DNA from: Pseudomonas sp. Tri1
Lineage (GTDB): Bacteria; Pseudomonadota; Gammaproteobacteria; Pseudomonadales; Pseudomonadaceae
Direction: 5' to 3'
Assembly: GCF_017968885.1 (NCBI RefSeq)
Contig: NZ_CP072913.1
Coordinates: 3,828,001-3,892,000 of the forward strand
Length of the DNA: 64,000 bases
The position numbers were made by a program, and so were the translations under genes. This document shows positions 45,841-64,000 of the stretch, one piece after another; the stretch's first letter is position 1; each line of letters opens with the position of its first letter. Under the pieces are notes generated by a model. It ran no database searches and was not told where the DNA came from. It saw only the letters and a list, made by a program, of their open reading frames with translations.

Positions 45841-46518
45841 ATGCTGACTCACCCTTCCATCGTTTTACTGTTGCGTCGTCACCACCTGTTCAGCCAATTG
45901 CCGGAGCGGATTTTCGAGGACGTGTGCAACCTCGCCGTCCTCAAGCGCCTGCCCTGCAACAGCACGCTCATGCACCAGGGCGACCCGGCCAAGCGGTTTT
46001 TCCTGCTGGTCAGTGGGCAGATCAAGTTGTACCGGGTCACCGGCGAAGGCCAGGAAAACCTGGTGGAGATCATCCAGCCCGGCCAGACCTTCGCCGAGGC
46101 CCTGCTGTTCAGCCAGGCCCGTTGCTACCCGGTCAGCGCGGCGGCGATCAAGGACAGTGTGCTGGTGAGTGTCGAAGGCACGCATTATCGCAAGGCCCTC
46201 GAGGACCAGCCCATGGTTTGCCTGGCGATCCTGGCGAGCATGAGCATCCATCTGCACCAGCGCCTGAAGGATATCGACAACCTGACCTTGGCCAGCGCCA
46301 GTCGGCGGGTGATCAATTTCCTGTTGCAGGAGCGGGATCCGCGGGATGGTCAGGTGGTGTTGCAGGTGTCCAAGCGTCTGGTGGCTTCCAAGCTGGGGAT
46401 CCAGCCGGAGACGTTTTCGCGGATTCTTCATCGGTTGGTGGATGGGGGGTTGATTGCCATGGAGCGGCGCAACATTCGCATCCTGGCCGAAGATGATCTG
46501 GAGGCTTACCAGCAGTAG
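45841..46518 (+). CDS. Crp/Fnr-family transcriptional regulator
   Basis: A 225-aa regulator with an N-terminal cyclic-nucleotide-like sensor domain (GDPAKRFFLLVSGQIKLYRVTGEGQENLVEIIQPGQTFAEALLF) and a C-terminal winged helix (SKRLVASKLGIQPETFSRILHRL). The recognition helix shares the xxPETFSR pattern of Dnr/Anr, so it may read TTGAT-type boxes. No N-terminal cysteine set of Anr is present, so an O2-labile Fe-S cluster is not expected. It is a paralogue of Dnr (57000-57683) and follows narXL. GGAGG precedes the ATG. The signal is unknown; NO or nitrate is plausible. Confidence 0.85.
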   Translation: MLTHPSIVLLLRRHHLFSQLPERIFEDVCNLAVLKRLPCNSTLMHQGDPAKRFFLLVSGQIKLYRVTGEGQENLVEIIQPGQTFAEALLFSQARCYPVSAAAIKDSVLVSVEGTHYRKALEDQPMVCLAILASMSIHLHQRLKDIDNLTLASASRRVINFLLQERDPRDGQVVLQVSKRLVASKLGIQPETFSRILHRLVDGGLIAMERRNIRILAEDDLEAYQQ

Positions 46519-51996: not shown

Positions 51997-52094
51997 GGCG
52001 GTGATCTCCCGATAGGTTTAGCCCAGTCTGCGCCTGGCCACCTGAGCCGACCTTGATCGTTGTCAATGCTGATTCCTGTGTTGAATTTACCGAC

Positions 52095-52185
52095 GCCATC
52101 GCGAGCAAGCTCGCTCCCACAGGGGGTAGGTGAACGCCATAGGACGAATGTGGGAGCGAGTGTGGGAGCGAGCTTGCTCGCGATG
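52095..52185. repeat. REP cluster between pdxH and norR
   Basis: A reverse REP (52095-52120) is followed by a partial REP core directly repeated before a full forward REP (GTGGGAGCGAGTGTGGGAGCGAGCTTGC, 52150-52184). The half-duplication of the 5' arm is unusual. It lies in the 224-bp gap between the pdxH start and the norR stop. Confidence 0.85.
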
Positions 52186-52220
52186 AAGGCAACTCGGTCG
52201 TGACAGACAAAGACAAACCG

Positions 52221-53753
52221 CTACTTGAGCCCCAACCGCCGCGCCAGCTTATGCAGGTTGCTCGGATCAACCTCCAACAGCCGCGCCGCCCCGGCCCAGT
52301 TCTGCCCGCAACGCTCCAGGGCCTTGAGGATCGCCTGGCGCTGACAAGCATCGACCGCCTCACCCAAGGGCTGCAGCGGCGAATCGAGCGCTTGAAGGGG
52401 CGCCTGGAGCATTGCCTGCGCCGACGTTGCGTTGGCATTGACGTCCAGATCCAGCACCTGCGGTTCCAGGGTCATGATCAAGCTGCGACTGGCGCCGTGG
52501 CTCAGTTGCTTTAACGCCGCGCGACTGATCACGTGCTCCAGCTCCCGCACGTTGCCCGGCCAGGAGTACGCCAGCAGCGCCTGTTCGGCCGCCGGCGACA
52601 GGCGCAACCCACGCAGGCCCAGGCGCGTGCGGTTCAGTTCAAGAAAGTGTCCGGCCAACATCAACACGTCGTGGCCGCGTTCGCGCAACGGCGGGATCGG
52701 CACCGGGTAGACCGAGAGCCGGTGATACAGGTCGGCGCGAAACAGGCCGTCACGGATGCTGTCGGGCAAATGCCGGTTGGTGGCGGCGATGATCCGCACA
52801 TCGACGTGCAGCGGCTTGTCCGCCCCCAGGCGCTGGATCTCACCGTTTTGCAGGGTGCGCAGCAACTTGGCCTGCACACTCAACGGCAACTCGCCGACCT
52901 CATCGAGAAACAGCGTGCCGCCATTGGCCGCGTCGAAACGCCCGGCGCGGTCGGTGGTCGCGCCGGAAAACGCGCCTTTGACGTGACCGAACAACTCGCT
53001 TTCGGCCAGAGACTCCGGCAACGCCGCACAATTGACCTGGACCAACGGCTTGTGGCCACGCCGGGACAGGCGATGCAGGCGGCGGGCGAACAACTCCTTG
53101 CCGACACCGGTTTCCCCCAGCAACAGCACCGGCAACTCCGAATCGGCCAGTACGTCCAGCTCATTGAGCAACTGCTGCAGCCCCTCGCTGCGCCCGAGGA
53201 TCTCGCCCTCTTCGGCCGGCAGGCGCAGGTCCGCCGGATCACTGCGCGATGCCCGCAGGCTACGGTTTTCCTGCTCGAGTCGAGTGACCCGCACCGCCGC
53301 CTCGATCTGCAAGGTGCAGCGCTTGAGTTCCTCGCGGGCGCGGCTGTCGAAGGTGCCGGCGTGGAGCGCATCGAGGGTGATCGCGCCCCACAACCGGCCT
53401 TCCACATACAGGCTCACGCCCATGCAATCGTGCACCGGCAGCGGTTCGCCGACGTGGTTGTCGAGCAAGCCGTCATAAGGATCCGGCAAACGGCTGTCGG
53501 GCTCGAACCAAGTCGGTTCGCGCGAAGCCATGATCGCCGCCAGGCGCGGGTGCTGGGCGATCACGAAGCGACGGCCCAGCGCCTCGTGGACCAGCCCTAC
53601 GGTGGCCACGGGCCTGAGGCTGTCATCGTCCAGACGCAACAGGCCCACGGCGCCACTGTTGAAGTATTCGCGCAGGGTCTGCACCAGGCGCTGCAATCGC
53701 ACGGCATTGGGCAACTCGACGATCAGGTCGGCGGCCAGGCTTTCACGCAGCAT
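52221..53753 (-). CDS. norR: NO-responsive sigma-54 activator NorR
   Basis: A 510-aa bacterial enhancer-binding protein. It has an N-terminal GAF domain for the NO-sensing mononuclear iron, an AAA+ domain with Walker A LLLGETGVGKELFAR, the sigma-54 contact loop GHVKGAFSGATTDR and Walker B GGTLFLDEVGELP, and a Fis-type helix-turn-helix at the C-terminus (NWAGAARLLEVDPSNLHKLARRL). The sigma-54 loop is GAFSGA rather than the usual GAFTGA. Its start codon adjoins three GT-N7-AC sites shared with the divergent dnrN promoter. No flavohaemoglobin gene, a common NorR target, is nearby. Confidence 0.93.
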   Translation of the reverse strand: MLRESLAADLIVELPNAVRLQRLVQTLREYFNSGAVGLLRLDDDSLRPVATVGLVHEALGRRFVIAQHPRLAAIMASREPTWFEPDSRLPDPYDGLLDNHVGEPLPVHDCMGVSLYVEGRLWGAITLDALHAGTFDSRAREELKRCTLQIEAAVRVTRLEQENRSLRASRSDPADLRLPAEEGEILGRSEGLQQLLNELDVLADSELPVLLLGETGVGKELFARRLHRLSRRGHKPLVQVNCAALPESLAESELFGHVKGAFSGATTDRAGRFDAANGGTLFLDEVGELPLSVQAKLLRTLQNGEIQRLGADKPLHVDVRIIAATNRHLPDSIRDGLFRADLYHRLSVYPVPIPPLRERGHDVLMLAGHFLELNRTRLGLRGLRLSPAAEQALLAYSWPGNVRELEHVISRAALKQLSHGASRSLIMTLEPQVLDLDVNANATSAQAMLQAPLQALDSPLQPLGEAVDACQRQAILKALERCGQNWAGAARLLEVDPSNLHKLARRLGLK

Positions 53754-53754
53754 G

Positions 53755-53809
53755 GTAGTGATTACCCTCCAGGGTTCATTTGACCCATCGCAGCCAGGGT
53801 GACAATCAC
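53755..53809. promoter_or_regulatory. three NorR sites upstream of dnrN
   Basis: GT-N7-AC elements occur at 53755-53765 (GTAGTGATTAC), 53774-53784 (GTTCATTTGAC) and 53799-53809 (GTGACAATCAC), most with extra flanking G/C symmetry (GGGT...ACCC). Start-to-start spacings are 19 and 25 bp. Three such sites are required for NorR activation in E. coli norVW. The first lies next to the norR ATG, so autoregulation is likely. Confidence 0.85.
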
Positions 53810-53850
53810 CCTGGCAAAAATTTAATGCTTTATTTTCAGCAAGTTATATA

Positions 53851-53865
53851 TGGCACGCTGGCTGC
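53851..53865 (+). promoter_or_regulatory. sigma-54 promoter of dnrN
   Basis: TGGCACGCTGGCTGC has the invariant GG (53852-53853) and GC (53864-53865) ten bp apart, close to TGGCAC-N5-TTGC. It is 43 bp downstream of the third NorR site and about 45 bp before the dnrN ATG. Confidence 0.85.
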
Positions 53866-53910
53866 AAAGCTCGCTCATCTGTCCCTCCCCGGGATTCCAC
53901 CCAAGGAAAC

Positions 53911-54588
53911 ATGATGAGCCTCGATCTGCTGGAACAAAGCCTTGGCCAATTGGCCTGCGACATTCCCGGTGCCACGCGCACCTTCCATCATTACAACCTC
54001 GATTTCTGCTGCGGCGGGCAAAAGTCCTTGCGCGAAGCCGCGCTGGGCAAAGGCCTGAATCCGCTGCTGATCGCCGATGCCCTGCGCACACTGCAAGCCG
54101 CCGGCGAACTCGGCCATGACTGGCGCGACGAGCCCCAGGCCCTGCTGATCGCCCACATCCTGGAACGCTACCACGCCCGCCATCGCGAGCAACTGCCGGA
54201 ACTGATCCGCCTGGCCCGGCGCGTCGAGCAGGTCCACGGTTCGCGGCCCAACTGCCCGAATGGCCTGGCCGATCACCTGCAGGACATGTACCAGGAACTC
54301 GAAGGCCACATGCTCAAGGAAGAACAGGTGCTGTTCCCGATGCTGCAACAGGGCCTCGGCGAACGGGCCTCGGCACCGATCCAGGTACTGCGTTACGAAC
54401 ACGACCAGCACGGTGAAGCCCTGGAAACCATGCTAGCCCTGACCGACCAGATCACCCCGCCCGCCAACGCCTGCAACACCTGGCGCGCCCTGTATCGCGG
54501 GCTCGTGGAGTTTCGTGATGACCTGATGCAGCACATCCATCTGGAAAACAATGTGTTGTTCGTCAATGCGATGAAAACCGTTCGCTGA
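53911..54588 (+). CDS. dnrN: DnrN/YtfE-type di-iron Fe-S cluster repair protein (RIC)
   Basis: A 225-aa protein with an N-terminal DUF542 domain (ATRTFHHYNLDFCCGGQKSLREAAL, conserved CC) and a hemerythrin-like C-terminal domain. His/Glu iron ligands appear in ILERYHARHREQLPELI, HMLKEEQVLFPM, LRYEHDQHGEAL and HIHLENNVLF. RIC proteins restore Fe-S clusters damaged by NO. A sigma-54 promoter with three NorR sites lies upstream, so it should be induced by NO. AAGGAAAC precedes the MM start. Confidence 0.92.
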   Translation: MMSLDLLEQSLGQLACDIPGATRTFHHYNLDFCCGGQKSLREAALGKGLNPLLIADALRTLQAAGELGHDWRDEPQALLIAHILERYHARHREQLPELIRLARRVEQVHGSRPNCPNGLADHLQDMYQELEGHMLKEEQVLFPMLQQGLGERASAPIQVLRYEHDQHGEALETMLALTDQITPPANACNTWRALYRGLVEFRDDLMQHIHLENNVLFVNAMKTVR

Positions 54589-54611
54589 CCATCAAGCATT
54601 ACCTGCCCCCT

Positions 54612-54697
54612 GTGGGAGCGAGCTTGCTCGCGATGGCGGTGGACCAGAAAACTCAATACTGGCTGATCCGACGCTATCGCGAGCAAGCTCGCTCCAC
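54612..54697. repeat. REPIN downstream of dnrN
   Basis: Two inverted REPs (GTGGGAGCGAGCTTGCTCGC at 54612 and GCGAGCAAGCTCGCTCCAC ending at 54697). The right unit lacks one C of the usual CTCCCAC, so the pair is imperfect. It fills most of the gap to the convergent nnrS-linked gene. Confidence 0.85.
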
Positions 54698-54764
54698 AGG
54701 GGACTGATGGTGTTCAAGCTATTTGGCCCCCCCTTGAATCAAGTGTTGGCCTTCACCCTCTTGC

Positions 54765-55205
54765 TTAAAACTGCCAATAGAACATCGCCTTGGCCAACAC
54801 CACGATCAGCAGCATGTGCCCCAGGATACTGCGGCGCAGCCAGCAGGCTCGGCCTGGGGTCAGCCGACCGCTCTTGAGCCAGTACGCCAGCCACAAGTAG
54901 TGACCGATGATGCTCAAGGCCAGGAGGATTTTCAGGCTCAGTAGCAGGCCGAAGCTGCTGCTCAACGGTTGGCTCAGTGCACTTCGGTGCTGCCACGCCA
55001 GGCCCAGGCCGGCGCCGTACAGCAACACCACGACACCGTGCAGCACATGCCGCGAGCGCTTGGCGATCGCCTGGTCGGCGGCGTCCTTGACACCTTGGGC
55101 CAGGGGTCGACGGGCGGCATGCCAGATAAAAACCTCGAAAAACAACGTGCCGATAAAGGCGATGGCCGCCAACAGGTGCGTGACCAGCAAGACCCCATAC
55201 ATCAT
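54765..55205 (-). CDS. four-helix inner-membrane protein downstream of nnrS (CopD-like)
   Basis: A 146-aa protein with about four hydrophobic helices (VTHLLAAIAFIGTLFFEVFIWHA, VLHGVVVLLYGAGLGLAW, ILLALSIIGHYLWLAYWL, GHMLLIVVLAKAMFY). Each helix carries a His, a pattern shared with CopD-like haem or copper membrane proteins. It lies 22 bp after nnrS on the same strand, so it probably works with NnrS during NO stress. No specific function is known. Confidence 0.72.
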   Translation of the reverse strand: MMYGVLLVTHLLAAIAFIGTLFFEVFIWHAARRPLAQGVKDAADQAIAKRSRHVLHGVVVLLYGAGLGLAWQHRSALSQPLSSSFGLLLSLKILLALSIIGHYLWLAYWLKSGRLTPGRACWLRRSILGHMLLIVVLAKAMFYWQF

Positions 55206-55227
55206 CGACTACCTCCGCGCAGGCGAC

Positions 55228-56418
55228 TCATCCCGGATGCCCATCCACCCGGGTCTGCAACAGCATCGGGCCATAACGCCAGGCGTAGAGGCCGAACGCC
55301 AACGTCCAGCACAACCCCGCCAACCACAGCCCGGCCAACGGGAATACCAGCACCAGCAGCACACGGCTCACACACGCCAGGTTCAACAGGATGAAGGCCA
55401 GGGTCATGCCCGCTGGTGGCTCAAGGGGGCGCCCGGTATGACCCAGGCTAACGCGGGCGATCATCGCCAGGATCAGCCCGGCCATGGCACCGATGGTCAG
55501 GCCATGCACCGCCAGGCTCGGATTCACCGGCACACCGAAGTGCCACAGCGCCATGCCCAGGCAGGCCACCGCCAGCCAAGCGTAGGCCAGGTGCAACGAC
55601 CACAGCAGCGGCACCCGCCACAAGTCTCGATCATGCCAACGCACCAGCCGAATCCCGTGCCCCACCGCCAGCGCGGCGAACAACAGGCCCACCCAGGCAC
55701 TGGCCACCAGCGCCGGACCGAAGGCATACAGCAACGCCACCAGCGCCGAACCCGCCAGCAACAGACGATCGAGCCACGGCCATGGCGCGACGCCCTCGAC
55801 CCGCCCGAGGCCGCGCTGGGTAAAGAACGGAATCACCCGTCCGCCGATCAACCCCATCATCGCCGCCACCAACCACAAGCCGGTGAGCACGCTTTGGCGT
55901 TGCAAGCCCTCGTTGTGCTGGAGCAGGCCGTACACAGACAACCCATCAGCGGCGGCCAATAGCAGCAATACCAGCACGATCGGGTAATTGCGCTTCTGCC
56001 GCACGCGCCACAACGTCATGCCCATCAACACCGCGACCGCCAGGGCGAACCCCAGCTCCAGCACCGTCAGCACAGGCCAGGGTGCATCGACCAACCAGGC
56101 CAATCGTGCGCCGAGCCACACCACAGCCAGCGCAGCCAAGCGCTTGCCGCTGAGCCCCGGGGTACCCGTCCAGGTCTGCACCGCCGTCAGCAGGAAGCCG
56201 GCGATAATCGCCAGGCCGAAACCAAACAACAGTTCATGACGGTGCCAGGCCAACCAGCCGCCAGCCGGCTGCCAGGCCGACAACCGCCCGGTGAACGCCG
56301 CGAGCCATAGGGGGATGGCCAACAGCGCCAACACGCAACCGGCCAAAAAGAACGGCCGGAACGCCAGGCGCCACAGCGGCAGAATGGCCATGGCCTTGCG
56401 ACGATCAAGCACTTGCAT
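55228..56418 (-). CDS. nnrS: NnrS family haem-copper membrane protein
   Basis: A 396-aa protein with about twelve hydrophobic helices and His residues characteristic of NnrS (GGWLAWHRHELLFGFGLAIIAGFLLTAVQTWTG, GLIGGRVIPFFTQRGLG, LAVHGLTIGAMAGLILAMIARVSLGHTGR). NnrS proteins bind haem and copper and protect against NO-driven iron starvation. Length equals the P. stutzeri Orf396 homologue as I recall. GAGGAG precedes the ATG. A degenerate ANR/DNR box lies about 100 bp upstream. Confidence 0.9.
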   Translation of the reverse strand: MQVLDRRKAMAILPLWRLAFRPFFLAGCVLALLAIPLWLAAFTGRLSAWQPAGGWLAWHRHELLFGFGLAIIAGFLLTAVQTWTGTPGLSGKRLAALAVVWLGARLAWLVDAPWPVLTVLELGFALAVAVLMGMTLWRVRQKRNYPIVLVLLLLAAADGLSVYGLLQHNEGLQRQSVLTGLWLVAAMMGLIGGRVIPFFTQRGLGRVEGVAPWPWLDRLLLAGSALVALLYAFGPALVASAWVGLLFAALAVGHGIRLVRWHDRDLWRVPLLWSLHLAYAWLAVACLGMALWHFGVPVNPSLAVHGLTIGAMAGLILAMIARVSLGHTGRPLEPPAGMTLAFILLNLACVSRVLLVLVFPLAGLWLAGLCWTLAFGLYAWRYGPMLLQTRVDGHPG

Positions 56419-56509
56419 ACACCACTCCTCAGCCTCACCCGGGATCTGGCCCGCCAGCGAGGTACGACAAATCAGGGTTCGAATGATCGGTTATCGACGC
56501 CGGCAGGCC

Positions 56510-56523
56510 TTGTCTCAGATCAA
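56510..56523. promoter_or_regulatory. weak ANR/DNR-like box upstream of nnrS
   Basis: TTGTCTCAGATCAA has one perfect half (ATCAA) and a 3/5 half (TTGTC). It is about 98 bp upstream of nnrS, farther than the other boxes of the window. Only a candidate. Confidence 0.4.
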
Positions 56524-56616
56524 GCCCGCCCATCGGCAACCTCCCGTCTCGAACAGGTACTTGCAAGGGGCTTGCCGAACACAGTCGAGCCTCTCAATAA
56601 AATGCCGTCCCTGCCT

Positions 56617-56704
56617 GTGGGAGCGAGCTTGCTCGCGATAGCGCTGGGTCAGTGGGTATTGATGTTGGGTGTACCACCGTCATCGCGAGCAAGCCCGCTC
56701 CCAC
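56617..56704. repeat. REPIN between nnrS and the dnr promoter
   Basis: Two inverted REPs (56617-56641 and 56679-56703), the right one with GCCCGCTCCCAC in place of GCTCGCTCCCAC. It ends 20 bp before the first NorR site. Confidence 0.85.
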
Positions 56705-56723
56705 CAAGACTGTAGCTCAAAGG

Positions 56724-56779
56724 GTATTTATTACCCTTTCGTGGTTGTTTTGACCCTATTGCGACAGGGTCATTTATAC
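56724..56779. promoter_or_regulatory. three NorR sites upstream of the dnr operon
   Basis: GT-N7-AC elements occur at 56724-56734 (inside AAAGGGTATTTATTACCCTTT, a perfect palindrome), 56744-56754 (GTTGTTTTGAC) and 56769-56779 (inside GGGTCATTTATACCC). Start-to-start spacings are 20 and 25 bp, almost identical to the dnrN promoter. The repeated architecture makes NorR binding very likely. Confidence 0.85.
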
Positions 56780-56821
56780 CCACCCCCGCAGTATCTCCCC
56801 ACGAATCAATGCCCACAGGCA

Positions 56822-56836
56822 TGGCCCGTCTCTTGC
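56822..56836 (+). promoter_or_regulatory. sigma-54 promoter of the dnr operon
   Basis: TGGCCCGTCTCTTGC carries GG (56823-56824) and GC (56835-56836) ten bp apart with a perfect TTGC. It lies 44 bp downstream of the third NorR site and 37 bp before a 29-codon ORF that leads into dnr. Confidence 0.83.
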
Positions 56837-56872
56837 TCAGGCACGGCATAGACTTTCTGCCAGGGGTTCTCC

Positions 56873-56962
56873 ATGAAACACGTCGTTTTGCCTCTCACTT
56901 GGTTCGTTGTGCTCGCCTGCATCGTCGCGCTCGCCAGCGGCTTATCCCTGAGCCTGGTCTGA
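56873..56962 (+). CDS. 29-aa single-helix membrane micro-ORF ahead of dnr
   Basis: An ATG at 56873 opens 29 codons starting MKHVVLPLTWFVVLACIVAL, almost wholly hydrophobic after Lys2-His3, predicted as one membrane helix. AGGGG lies 8 nt before the ATG. It sits just downstream of the sigma-54 promoter and 37 bp before dnr, so it would be first in the transcript. It could be a membrane microprotein or a leader affecting dnr translation. I know no characterised homologue. Confidence 0.55.
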   Translation: MKHVVLPLTWFVVLACIVALASGLSLSLV

Positions 56963-56999
56963 AACCGTTTACTTTCTTGCCTATAAAAGGATTCATGCC

Positions 57000-57683
57000 A
57001 TGGTGCTCCATCGTGTCCATCACCAGATTCTGCGCAGCCATCACCTGTTCGAGCCGTTGAACGAAGAACAGCTCGACGAACTGATGAGCACCAGCCAATT
57101 GCTGAATATCGACAAGGGCGATCCGCTGTTCCGCCAGGGAGAACCGGCGCAGGCGTTTTACTTCGTGATTTCCGGAGCGGTGAAAATCTACCGGCTGACC
57201 CCGGACGGCCAGGAAAAAGTCTTCGAGGTGATCGGCGAGCGCCAGACCTTCGCCGAAGCCATGATGCTGATGGACACGCCCAACTACGTGGCCTCGGCCG
57301 AAGCCGTCGGCCCGACCCAGTTGTATCGCCTGTCCAACGCCACGTACATGCGCCTGTTGCACAGCAACAGCCGGTTGACCTTTGCCCTGCTCGGCAAGCT
57401 CTGCGTACGCCTGCACCAGCGGGTCAACGAGATTGAAACCCTGTCGCTGAAAAATGCCACCCACCGGGTGGTGCGCTACCTGCTGACGCAACTGGTGCGC
57501 CTGCAAACCGTGGACAGTCAGTTCGAACTGCCAATGGCCAAGCAGTTGATCGCCGGGCACCTGTCGATCCAGCCGGAAACCTTCTCGCGGATCATCCGAC
57601 GCCTGATCGACGAAAAGATCATCACCCAGGACGGTCGCCAGATCGCCATTCTCGATCGCCTGCGCCTGGAGCAATTCGAATGA
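57000..57683 (+). CDS. dnr: denitrification regulator Dnr (Crp/Fnr family)
   Basis: A 227-aa regulator close to P. aeruginosa Dnr. It shares LRSHHLFEPLNEEQLDEL, FRQGEPAQAFYFVISGAVKIYRLTPDGQEKVFEV, FAEAMMLMDTPNYVASAEAV and the winged helix AKQLIAGHLSIQPETFSRIIRRL. Dnr binds haem, senses NO and activates nir, nor and nos promoters at TTGAT-type boxes. Four such boxes with good matches occur in this window. Its own promoter here looks NorR- and sigma-54-dependent. Overlaps the following zinc-ribbon gene by 4 bp. Confidence 0.92.
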   Translation: MVLHRVHHQILRSHHLFEPLNEEQLDELMSTSQLLNIDKGDPLFRQGEPAQAFYFVISGAVKIYRLTPDGQEKVFEVIGERQTFAEAMMLMDTPNYVASAEAVGPTQLYRLSNATYMRLLHSNSRLTFALLGKLCVRLHQRVNEIETLSLKNATHRVVRYLLTQLVRLQTVDSQFELPMAKQLIAGHLSIQPETFSRIIRRLIDEKIITQDGRQIAILDRLRLEQFE

Positions 57684-57880
57684 GCGCACAGTCCATCTGC
57701 CTGTATTGCCAACACGCCAACCCTGCCGAGGAAAACGAATGTCGCCAGTGCGGCATGCCCCTGCCGGCCGACGCTGCCTTGGCCGACGAGCGTCGGCTGC
57801 GGCGCTTCGGTTGGTTCTGTGTGGGGCTGACGATCTTCTGCATCGGCATGTTCTTCTGGCTGCCCCGCGACATCGTCTGA
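57680..57880 (+). CDS. DnrP-like small zinc-ribbon membrane protein
   Basis: A 66-aa protein with an N-terminal zinc ribbon (CLYCQHANPAEENECRQCGMPL, two CxxC pairs) and a C-terminal membrane helix (FGWFCVGLTIFCIGMFFWL). It overlaps the dnr stop (ATGA), implying coupled expression. Proteins named DnrP occupy this place in some pseudomonads; the role is unknown. It ends 4 bp before the convergent norD stop. Confidence 0.72.
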   Translation: MSAQSICLYCQHANPAEENECRQCGMPLPADAALADERRLRRFGWFCVGLTIFCIGMFFWLPRDIV

Positions 57881-57884
57881 ACCC

Positions 57885-59723
57885 TCAATCCTGCGTCAGC
57901 TGCCGGTACAACTGCGGCAGCCGCAGCGGCAATTGTTCGGGCTGGCGAATCAAGGTGTAGCCGTTGGCCCCGAACATGTACGGCAAGTAATCCCCCGCTT
58001 CGCGATCGATGGTGATACAGAACGGCGTCAACCCCTGGCGCCGCGCCTCGATCACCGCCTGGCGGGTGTCCTCCACACCGTAGCGCCCTTCGTAGAGATC
58101 CAGGTCATTGGGCTTGCCGTCACTGAGCAGCAACAATAATTTGCGCCGCCGTTTGCAGCCCTCCAGCCGTTGCGTGGCCTGGCGGATCGCCGCCCCCATA
58201 CGCGTGTAGTAACCGGGCTTGAGTCCCTGGATACGTCCGCGAGTGTGATCGTCGTAACGCTGATTGAAAGCTTTGAGTTCATGCATGCGCACCTGCTGGC
58301 GGCGCAGGGAAGAGAACCCGTACAGGGCGAAATCGTCCCCCAGCACCGACAGGGTTTCGCCAAACAGCAACAGGCTATCGCGTATGACATCGATTACCCG
58401 GTGTTCGTCATTGAGGTGGGCATCGGTGGACATCGACAGGTCCGCCAGCAGCAGGCAGGCCAGGTCGCGACGGGTCTGGCGTTGTTCCAGGAACAAGCCG
58501 CGCTCGCTGCATTGGCCGTGCTGGCGCTCGACGTGAAAATCCAGCCAGGCTTGCAGGTCCAGTTCCGAGCCCTGGGTTTGCTGGCGCAGCCATTGCCGAT
58601 CGTTACGCAGGTGTTCGAATTGACGACGCAAGCGCTGGGCCGAGGGGCGCAAGCGCAAAGGCAGCGGCTGTGGCTCGCAGTCCCGGGGGATGAAGGTTTG
58701 TACGCTGACGAAATCATCCTGCAGCCGTTGCTTGCGGTAGTCCCATTCGGGCAGGCGAATGCCCTCGCCCAAGGGGATGTCATCCACATCGGCCGGCGGC
58801 AGGTCCAAGTGCAGTTTCAGGCCGCCCCCCTTGCGCAAGCGGGTGCGCGAAAGGGTCAATTGGTCAAGGTCTTCAGCCACCCGAGCGGCGTCCGGGTCTT
58901 CGCTGTCGTCCGCCCAGCGATCCAGGTCCACATGTTCGGTCCAACTGAACAGGTTCTCCAGGCGCACGATCAGCAGCCCACCGTCACGACTGGTTTCATC
59001 GATGCGCTCGGCGCGCTTGCGACCGCCCTGCTGCTCACCCGGCGGTGTCGCCAGGTATTGCTCGGACTCTTCGAGGTTGGCGGCCTGGGGATTGGCCAGG
59101 TGTTGGGGTGGGTAAAGCCACAGCGGCAACGGCCAGGCCGCCCGCTCGCTACGGGGAAAATGTTCGACGCTGCCCGGTTCGCGCAAGGCTTGGCACAGCG
59201 CACGCTCCAGGGTGGCTTCGGCCGGGTTGAGTGTGGCCGGATCAGGGCGCAGGGACAGGTGCGCATCCACCAGGCGTCGGTAGCGAGGGCGCAGTGCCGG
59301 GTAGCGCTGCAACACTGCCTGGGTCCAGCGTTGATTGTCACGCCCCCAGTGACGCATTGGCCCCGATTGCGCGGCCAGCAACGCGAGCCAGCGATACAGT
59401 TCCTCGTTCAATTCGGTATCGGGAAACGCTGCCAGGCTCGCGGGCAAACGCAGGTTGTCGCCATCGCAGCAGGCCAGGGGCACTTGCTTGCAGGTGCCGG
59501 CGATCTGCTGCAACAGGTTGCGACGTAGCAACAGATCACGGTCGCTGACCGCTTCCACCCCCAGATGACGAGCGCCGCCGGTGGCGCGAAACAGCACCTG
59601 CAGCGCGCGTTGCCGGGGGATCAGCTCGACCCGTGCCTCAGGAAAATCGACACTGGCACGGCGGGTAATGAAACGGTGCCAGACACTGCCGACCCATTCT
59701 TCCAGCTCTAGGGTGAAGGCCAT
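57885..59723 (-). CDS. norD: NO reductase activation protein NorD
   Basis: A 612-aa protein whose C-terminal von Willebrand A domain has the MIDAS motif LLADLSMSTD (DxSxS) and later LSDGKPNDLD. The N-terminal starts MAFTLELEEWVGSVWHR. NorD works with the NirQ/NorQ AAA+ protein to insert metals into or activate NorCB. It is 87 bp downstream of norB with a hairpin in between. Confidence 0.9.
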   Translation of the reverse strand: MAFTLELEEWVGSVWHRFITRRASVDFPEARVELIPRQRALQVLFRATGGARHLGVEAVSDRDLLLRRNLLQQIAGTCKQVPLACCDGDNLRLPASLAAFPDTELNEELYRWLALLAAQSGPMRHWGRDNQRWTQAVLQRYPALRPRYRRLVDAHLSLRPDPATLNPAEATLERALCQALREPGSVEHFPRSERAAWPLPLWLYPPQHLANPQAANLEESEQYLATPPGEQQGGRKRAERIDETSRDGGLLIVRLENLFSWTEHVDLDRWADDSEDPDAARVAEDLDQLTLSRTRLRKGGGLKLHLDLPPADVDDIPLGEGIRLPEWDYRKQRLQDDFVSVQTFIPRDCEPQPLPLRLRPSAQRLRRQFEHLRNDRQWLRQQTQGSELDLQAWLDFHVERQHGQCSERGLFLEQRQTRRDLACLLLADLSMSTDAHLNDEHRVIDVIRDSLLLFGETLSVLGDDFALYGFSSLRRQQVRMHELKAFNQRYDDHTRGRIQGLKPGYYTRMGAAIRQATQRLEGCKRRRKLLLLLSDGKPNDLDLYEGRYGVEDTRQAVIEARRQGLTPFCITIDREAGDYLPYMFGANGYTLIRQPEQLPLRLPQLYRQLTQD

Positions 59724-61739: not shown

Positions 61740-61753
61740 TTGATGGCGATCAA
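61740..61753. promoter_or_regulatory. DNR/ANR box of norC
   Basis: TTGATGGCGATCAA matches TTGAT-N4-ATCAA perfectly, centred 64 bp upstream of norC. In pseudomonads this site is used by Dnr. Confidence 0.88.

Positions 61754-63566: not shown

Positions 63567-64000
<434 letters not shown>

Follow-up and report, generated by a model that had tools for sequence, protein, structure and literature searches.

In the textbook hierarchy of denitrification control in Pseudomonas, which comes from P. aeruginosa, the oxygen sensor Anr makes Dnr and nitric oxide (NO) activates Dnr. Here we analyze the dnr locus of a 64,000-nucleotide stretch (the window; positions 3828001-3892000 of contig NZ_CP072913.1) of the complete 6.7-Mb genome of Pseudomonas sp. 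Tri1, in which two promoters with the layout of NorR targets, P1 and P2, precede the Fe-S repair gene dnrN and the regulator gene dnr. The closest described systems are norR-norVW of E. coli and norR-norAB of Ralstonia, which, in the published accounts available to us, likewise have three GT-N7-AC sites followed by a sigma-54 element and a NorR whose GAF ligand residues match those of the NorR of the window (PMC1274295, PMC2941729). NorR is described as needing all three sites for activation of its ATPase and as binding NO at the iron of the GAF domain, and NorR lacking residues 1-170 does not respond to NO (PMC2941729). Unlike these systems, the window has a transcription regulator as a target, rather than an enzyme of NO removal or repair, and a second, matching promoter serves dnrN.

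Within Pseudomonas, NorR sites have been predicted for dnrN and hmp in the case of P. stutzeri and for nnrS in that of P. aeruginosa (Rodionov 2005, PMC1274295). The motif and the dnrN target recur in the window, but the Pseudomonas targets listed in the accessible part of that paper are dnrN, hmp, and nnrS, and dnr is not named there as a NorR target. In P. aeruginosa, Anr is reported to control dnr (PMC8139620) and FhpR to control fhp (PMC9414441). An earlier note on this DNA, made from the letters alone, had described dnr of P. aeruginosa as controlled by Anr and NarL and NorR as serving fhp only; the links of Anr to dnr and of FhpR to fhp agree with these sources, and a NorR site at nnrS is also predicted there. 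In the openly licensed literature, as far as its text was accessible, no statement on NorR control of dnr was found.

Two matching promoters before dnrN and dnr

P1 consists of three NorR-type GGT-N7-ACC sites on the plus strand (53754..53810), at 53754-53766 (GGTAGTGATTACC), 53773-53785 (GGTTCATTTGACC), and 53798-53810 (GGTGACAATCACC), and a plus-strand sigma-54 element at 53851..53866 (TGGCACGCTGGCTGCA). P2 has the same composition and orientation, with sites (56723..56780) at 56723-56735 (GGTATTTATTACC), 56743-56755 (GGTTGTTTTGACC), and 56768-56780 (GGTCATTTATACC) and a sigma-54 element at 56822..56837 (TGGCCCGTCTCTTGCT). The dyads are spaced 19/25 bp in P1 and 20/25 bp in P2, and 42 and 43 bases, respectively, separate the AC of site 3 from the GG of the GG-N10-GC element. 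P1 lies before dnrN and P2 before a short open reading frame (ORF), the micro-ORF, and dnr. The earlier note had described just this arrangement, and its sites, elements, and spacings can be read directly in the sequence; its distance of 43-44 bp counts the step rather than the bases between, and the gene identities on which it relied agree with NCBIfam, Pfam, and PDB matches. The observation of the two promoters is confirmed. A strict triplet pattern (GGT-N7-ACC three times, with gaps of 4-10 and 8-16) matched the genome at P1 and P2 only and gave no match in the reversed control; being strict, it may pass over weak targets of NorR or FhpR.

The gene order at the locus is norR (minus strand), dnrN/ytfE (plus), a CopD-like ORF (minus), nnrS (minus), the micro-ORF (plus), dnr (plus), norD, norB, norC (minus), norQ/nirQ (minus), and nirS (plus), some of the nor names being ones that we presume. 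The product of norR (NorR1; 52221..53753, minus strand) is a full-length GAF-AAA+-HTH protein of the NO-responsive sigma-54 activator type (NCBIfam NF003451, 689 bits; cutoff, 476) with 47% identity to NorR of E. coli K-12. Its GAF residues R70, D91, D94, H108, C110, and D128 correspond in the alignment to the iron-ligand residues R75, D96, D99, H111, C113, and D131 of the E. coli protein. Of these, R75 is named in PMC2941729. The gene dnrN/ytfE/ric (53911..54588, plus strand) encodes an Fe-S repair di-iron protein with Pfam ScdA_N and Hemerythrin domains, which scores above the cutoff for NCBIfam YtfE (330 bits; cutoff, 254) and below that for DnrN (143 bits; cutoff, 300); "dnrN" denotes the RIC/YtfE-type gene throughout. 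The product of dnr (57000..57683, plus strand) is a CRP/FNR-family activator (Pfam cNMP_binding and HTH_Crp_2) whose best match among solved structures is the DNR protein 3dkw (E 1.8e-94), presumably from P. aeruginosa. From the promoters, the NorR protein, and the conservation reported below, we consider it very probable that P1 and P2 are sigma-54 promoters of the same NorR and that NO would act through NorR and RpoN on both dnrN and dnr in a feed-forward manner.

Conservation of P2 and co-occurrence with NorR

Dnr orthologues (E<=1e-70) are present in 87 of 398 genomes of the genus, and all 87 loci were read. The 700 bp upstream of dnr were searched for three GT-N7-AC sites and TGG-N10-GC at 36-46 bases. 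This pattern was found at 62 of the 87 loci (60 of them distinct), with spacings of 18-20 and 24-25 and then 41-44 bases to TGG-N10-GC, and in none of 26,100 first-order Markov shuffles of the 87 upstream regions. The GGT/ACC arms and the -24 and -12 boxes are near-invariant, and the spacers drift. The outer G/C of the dyads and the TT and T of the -12 box TTGCT carry 1.7-2.0 bits, though not forced by the search; the CT beside the dyads carries 0.7-1.3 bits, the remaining gap positions 0.1-0.7, and the 41-base spacer 0-0.8, with one column at 1.2. The strict triplet occurs at least once in 102 of the 398 genomes, compared with 10 for the reversed control, and many of the 102 hold two triplets, some pairs being 2.2-3.1 kb apart. 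Several strict matches that are not near norR or dnr, such as L006, L007, L031, and L033, are likely due to chance.

Within the genus, the promoter mostly accompanies a NorR with its GAF domain. A NorR of at least 77% identity with a GAF domain is encoded in 71 of the 87 genomes, two of these matches being incomplete (the G273 match is truncated where the contig stops, and that of G052 shifts to a different frame for residues 439-510). The other 16 genomes have a NorR of 63-67% only (four), a NorR match beginning at about residue 172 (three: G101, G004, and G304), or FhpR-like proteins only (nine). A NorR-type promoter serves dnr in 71/71 genomes of the first kind, a count that takes in relaxed, long-spacer, and operon forms, and in 0/4, 1/3, and 0/9 of the others, respectively. 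The 71 comprise 65 standard promoters, two with degenerate sites (L048 and L086), two with long spacers (L100 and L116), and two dnrN-dnr operons (L126 and L128). Lack of conservation in close relatives had been named by the earlier note as one outcome that would refute its proposal, and the proposal withstood this check. Because dnr lies behind a NorR-type promoter in many soil and plant Pseudomonas, NO itself probably switches Dnr on in these bacteria.

Of 80 loci from named strains (the best 80 of 167 relatives, some of them strains already counted above), 65 have the standard promoter, three a long-spacer form, two a dnrN-dnr operon, and 10 none. Carriers include P. brassicacearum, P. corrugata, P. 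thivervalensis, P. mandelii, P. frederiksbergensis, P. lini, P. libanensis, P. chlororaphis PCL1601, and P. donghuensis; P. rhodesiae, P. marginalis PgKB35, P. cedrina, P. lactucae, and P. fildesensis are among those without a NorR-type dnr promoter.

Several individual loci are worth recording. In L083, L098, L099, L191, L195, and L201, NorR matches only from residue 125-178 onward, its GAF domain being absent or dissimilar, and the adjoining DnrN only from residue 70, without ScdA_N; their NorR proteins are possibly natural NO-blind forms. A DnrN match starting near residue 75 is also seen in L016 and G052, beside a NorR that has its GAF domain. In L100 and L116, where 204-206 bases separate the triplet from the sigma-54 element, and also in L141, L144, and L145, palindromes resembling repetitive extragenic palindromes lie between the two, a natural test of enhancer looping. 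L027 (G032) retains a NorR triplet and TGGCCCAGCTCTTGCT, with no dnr match in the next 1.5 kb and an antisense norB fragment downstream. In L123, L124, and L125, NorR sites are absent and dnr follows a 235-amino-acid CRP/FNR-like ORF in tandem.

The micro-ORF between P2 and dnr

The first ORF after P2 (56873..56962, plus strand; window form MKHVVLPLTWFVVLACIVALASGLSLSLV) would encode a hydrophobic microprotein of 29 amino acids, and its stop lies 37 nt before the dnr start. The 29-codon core is found at 61 of the 87 genus loci: 54/69 with an own dnr promoter and 7/15 without any NorR-type promoter. Across 59 distinct sequences (pairs 3-25% apart), dN/dS is 0.16, compared with 0.70 and 5.3 in the shifted frames, and on this ground a random ORF was set aside; the micro-ORF is under purifying selection. 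The product resembles the N terminus of a protein of about 170 amino acids from other clades, which itself has no Pfam match. A wider micro-ORF pattern gave no match at 16 of the 87 loci, including L108 (P. donghuensis) and L120 (P. rubra). Between the micro-ORF and dnr of the window, neither a plus-strand terminator-like site nor a special RNA structure (z -0.67) was found.

Which regulator acts at dnr

P2 might be the target of the paralogue FhpR rather than of NorR1. A FhpR-like protein is encoded beside hmp in the host genome and, at the protein level, in all 30 genus genomes searched for it (51-55% identical), and the hmp promoters share the three-site geometry (15/15 read). Their flanks differ, however: hmp sites are mostly flanked by A/G..T (A/G/T..T in 38/45 and G..C in 3/45), whereas NorR-type sites have G..C in 288/294 (98 distinct promoters). 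By this measure P2 is of the NorR kind and not of the FhpR kind; moreover, it is absent from 9/9 genus genomes with FhpR-like proteins only. We set FhpR aside as the P2 binder because hmp sites have other flanks, and we regard its action there as very improbable. (The FhpR paralogue, L255, has the motif GAFTGA, unlike the GAFSGA of the window NorR.) Likewise very improbable, in our estimate, is that P2 serves the micro-ORF only and that dnr has a promoter of its own further down. Such an arrangement would suit the place of the conserved micro-ORF directly after P2, but the gap to dnr is short and free of terminator-like sites on the plus strand, and in L108 and L120, where no micro-ORF was found, the sigma-54 element begins 72 and 53 bp before dnr. 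With P1 only 3 kb away, P2 could conceivably be a nonfunctional copy, or the resemblance could be due to chance; yet P1 and P2 are unlike outside the motif (by eye), the pattern is kept in deeply diverged Dnr clades while its spacers drift, and the shuffled regions never produced it, so that we find this explanation next to impossible. A role of P2 as the promoter of nnrS was also rejected, its sigma-54 element facing dnr and nnrS having its own box at a near-fixed distance.

The remaining alternative is that Anr (or Dnr) still drives dnr and that NorR only adds to this control. The candidate site is an Anr/Dnr-type box of the form TTGTC-N4-ATCAA at 56510..56523 (TTGTCTCAGATCAA; boxes are given without strand), 92 bp from the nnrS start and 490 bp from dnr, or else a weaker box nearer dnr. 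Such a box is conserved upstream of dnr and lies 76-205 bp from it in most NorR-less relatives, and Anr control of dnr is described as the rule in P. aeruginosa (PMC8139620). Some P2 loci also have box-like matches closer to dnr, at 223-237 bp and overlapping the NorR promoter in L051, L057, L060, and L096, and at about 40 bp, with one or two mismatches, in L051, L057, L068, L072, L074, L077, L078, L084, and L089. Against this, at all genus loci with an adjoining nnrS (of the 87 read) at which the main box was found, it is 56-98 bp away from the start of that gene, whatever the architecture (L130 has an additional perfect box at 36 bp), whereas its distance to dnr grows from 76-205 bp without P2 to 265-627 bp with P2, as does the nnrS-dnr gap (135-264 versus 342-724 bp). 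Two named loci without P2 exceed these ranges (L200, box 299 bp and gap 356; L190, box 420 bp and gap 477). These distances fit a box that serves nnrS, to which the box at 56510 probably belongs. L091 and L103 have P2 and no box that we could find. In the window, no box stands at promoter distance from dnr as in the P. aeruginosa type, no weaker box was found within 480 bp of dnr, and a scan for the consensus only gave no sigma-70-like match in 56418-57700. We therefore judge continued direct control by Anr unlikely, though a serious contender. Since the main box keeps to nnrS and is separated from dnr by P2, the data suggest that NorR has taken the place of Anr in the direct control of dnr instead of adding a layer to it. 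The earlier note had proposed that NO sensed by NorR raises Dnr on top of the Anr/Dnr cascade; the first half gains support from the 71/71 conservation, and the box distances speak against the stacking.

The promoter in other genera and its history

Outside the genus, dnr loci were fetched for 12 of 48 genomes with Dnr in group g15, which is probably Stutzerimonas, and for 11 of 18 in group g9. A NorR-type promoter followed by dnrN and then dnr is present at 12/12 fetched g15 loci and 1/2 g16 loci, and a protein X, full or shortened, lies between dnrN and dnr at 9 of these 13. From these dnrN-(X-)dnr operons (L214-L226) it follows that dnr, too, would be among the NorR targets in such relatives; dnr of the window has a separate promoter. 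In all, dnr occurs behind NorR promoters in three architectures: with its own P2, as P-X-dnr, and as P-dnrN-(X-)dnr. Work by Vollack from 1999 reportedly found that dnrD of P. stutzeri is cotranscribed with upstream genes and that its strong induction during denitrification is not under FnrA. If so, NorR acting at dnrN-X-dnr could account for this induction.

The triplet was found at dnr in none of the 11 fetched g9 loci and neither of the two g12 loci, and at 11 of these 13 the dnrN-dnr pair follows a TTGAC-N4-RTCAA-type box; it was likewise not found at five g18, two g7, two g4, and one g19 loci. The Anr-dnr cascade of P. aeruginosa, with an orthologous Dnr and the same kinds of target (nir and nor), differs from the window in that Anr controls dnr there and in that the fetched g9 loci lack the triplet.

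On a Dnr DNA tree (124 rows; quick method with Shimodaira-Hasegawa-like approximate likelihood ratio support only), the promoter trait requires five changes. A clade with NorR lost or cut, in which G304 lies, is nested within promoter-bearing clades, and G069 is a second co-loss; these two promoter losses inside the promoter-bearing clade accompany loss or truncation of NorR. The architectures could go back to an ancestral dnrN-X-dnr operon under NorR that came to be interrupted by the divergent nnrS pair; dnr would have kept or regained its own NorR promoter, and X would have shrunk to 29 codons.

Other features of the window

Dnr-type boxes lie upstream of norCB (61740..61753, TTGATGGCGATCAA) and between nirQ/norQ and nirS (63646..63659, TTGATCGCCGTCAA); including these, the window holds seven TTGAY-N4-RTCAA boxes, compared with 0.16 expected, and further ones are located near nrdD (31078) and pdxH (52053). 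nnrS (55228..56418, minus strand; Pfam NnrS, E 1.7e-108) is divergent from dnr, and downstream of it a small membrane protein is encoded (54765..55205, minus strand) with a weak match to Pfam CopD (21.3 bits; cutoff, 32.1). nirS begins at about 63762 on the plus strand and continues beyond the window end (L278:763-2442). An ORF of 66 amino acids at 57680-57880, which weakly matches a zinc ribbon, shares 4 bases with the end of dnr and may therefore be cotranscribed with it. A Dnr paralogue of 37% identity is encoded at 45841-46518, adjoining narXL. No known RNA family reached its gathering score in 52000-58000.

Discussion

Published expression data from P. donghuensis are consistent with NorR control of dnr. 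In strain P482 exposed to tomato exudate, transcriptome sequencing gave log2 changes of 6.36 for ytfE, 6.13 for hmp, 4.99 for nnrS, 4.44 for norC, 4.19 for norD, 4.18 for norB, and 3.23 for dnr, and nir was not induced; maize exudate caused no such induction, and the authors infer exogenous NO (PMC10256816, as far as accessible). The accessible text of that study contains no discussion of the route by which dnr is induced. In P. donghuensis HYS (L136), P2 stands directly before dnr, with the start of the sigma-54 element 72 bp upstream and no micro-ORF found, and P2 would offer a direct route for the NO-driven rise of dnr in P482.

Several observations weigh against a NorR-driven dnr promoter. 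In P482 norR itself falls (-1.67; PMC10256816, accessible text), and dnr could be induced there through another NO sensor. According to a review, as far as available, ric of P. stutzeri is under DnrD (PMC9268430), an effect that could be indirect, a dnrD mutant being without NO from NirS. The window NorR has GAFSGA in place of GAFTGA, a conservative T-to-S change, and the position of E. coli R81 is not conserved in it. G052 has a standard P2, and P1 as well, even though the last 72 residues of its norR (439-510, the HTH) can be matched in a different frame only (L279), and in G304, whose NorR is without its GAF domain, a NorR-type promoter precedes dnrN-dnr. G400 and G416 (g4) and G456 (g9) have a NorR of 77-78% and no NorR promoter at dnr; in G416 a triplet stands next to norR-dnrN, away from dnr, and none was found beside norR in G456. 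These three genomes weigh against a universal NorR-dnr link. Finally, a test of independent pairs covered the 113 rows for which both traits were available; for g15/g16, NorR was read at the locus, and outgroup rows that had not been searched were excluded. It gave four pairs (starred branches), 2.8 changing the same way and none the opposite way (p 0.25). The direction is the expected one, and the test is not significant because independent events are few.

With these points weighed, we favor the following model, in which NorR drives dnr. NO would bind the nonheme iron of NorR, and a NorR hexamer on the three dyads would open RpoN polymerase at P1, for dnrN, and at P2, for the micro-ORF and dnr. 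Dnr, itself an NO sensor, would then activate norCB, nirS/nirQ, and nnrS through TTGAT-N4-ATCAA-type boxes. NO would thereby act twice, in making Dnr and in activating it, and so form a coherent feed-forward loop; where nirS is present, NO from NirS would add positive feedback. The part played by Anr at dnr of P. aeruginosa would fall to NorR in this clade. The NorR-dnr link, proposed here on computational grounds, would be a new wiring of known parts.

A bolder proposal, covering the dnr-bearing P. fluorescens complex and its Stutzerimonas-like relatives, is one that we advance tentatively and with slightly more doubt than belief: an all-NO circuit, from NO through NorR/RpoN, Dnr, and NirS back to NO, may gate denitrification, with Anr not acting directly at dnr. 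Such a circuit would make the onset of denitrification self-sustaining and possibly bistable; separately, exogenous NO, for example from plants, would raise NorCB and NnrS under air by way of NorR and Dnr, and the microprotein would be a selected part of the circuit.

If P2 works as predicted, the production of Dnr in many soil and plant Pseudomonas would hinge on NO and RpoN. What looks like a regulator swap would be traceable across species, P2 being mostly lost where NorR is lost or cut. NorR control would explain why dnr, ytfE, and nor are induced together without nir in P. donghuensis, and it would change how the onset of denitrification, cell-to-cell variation, and the release of NO and N2O are modeled.

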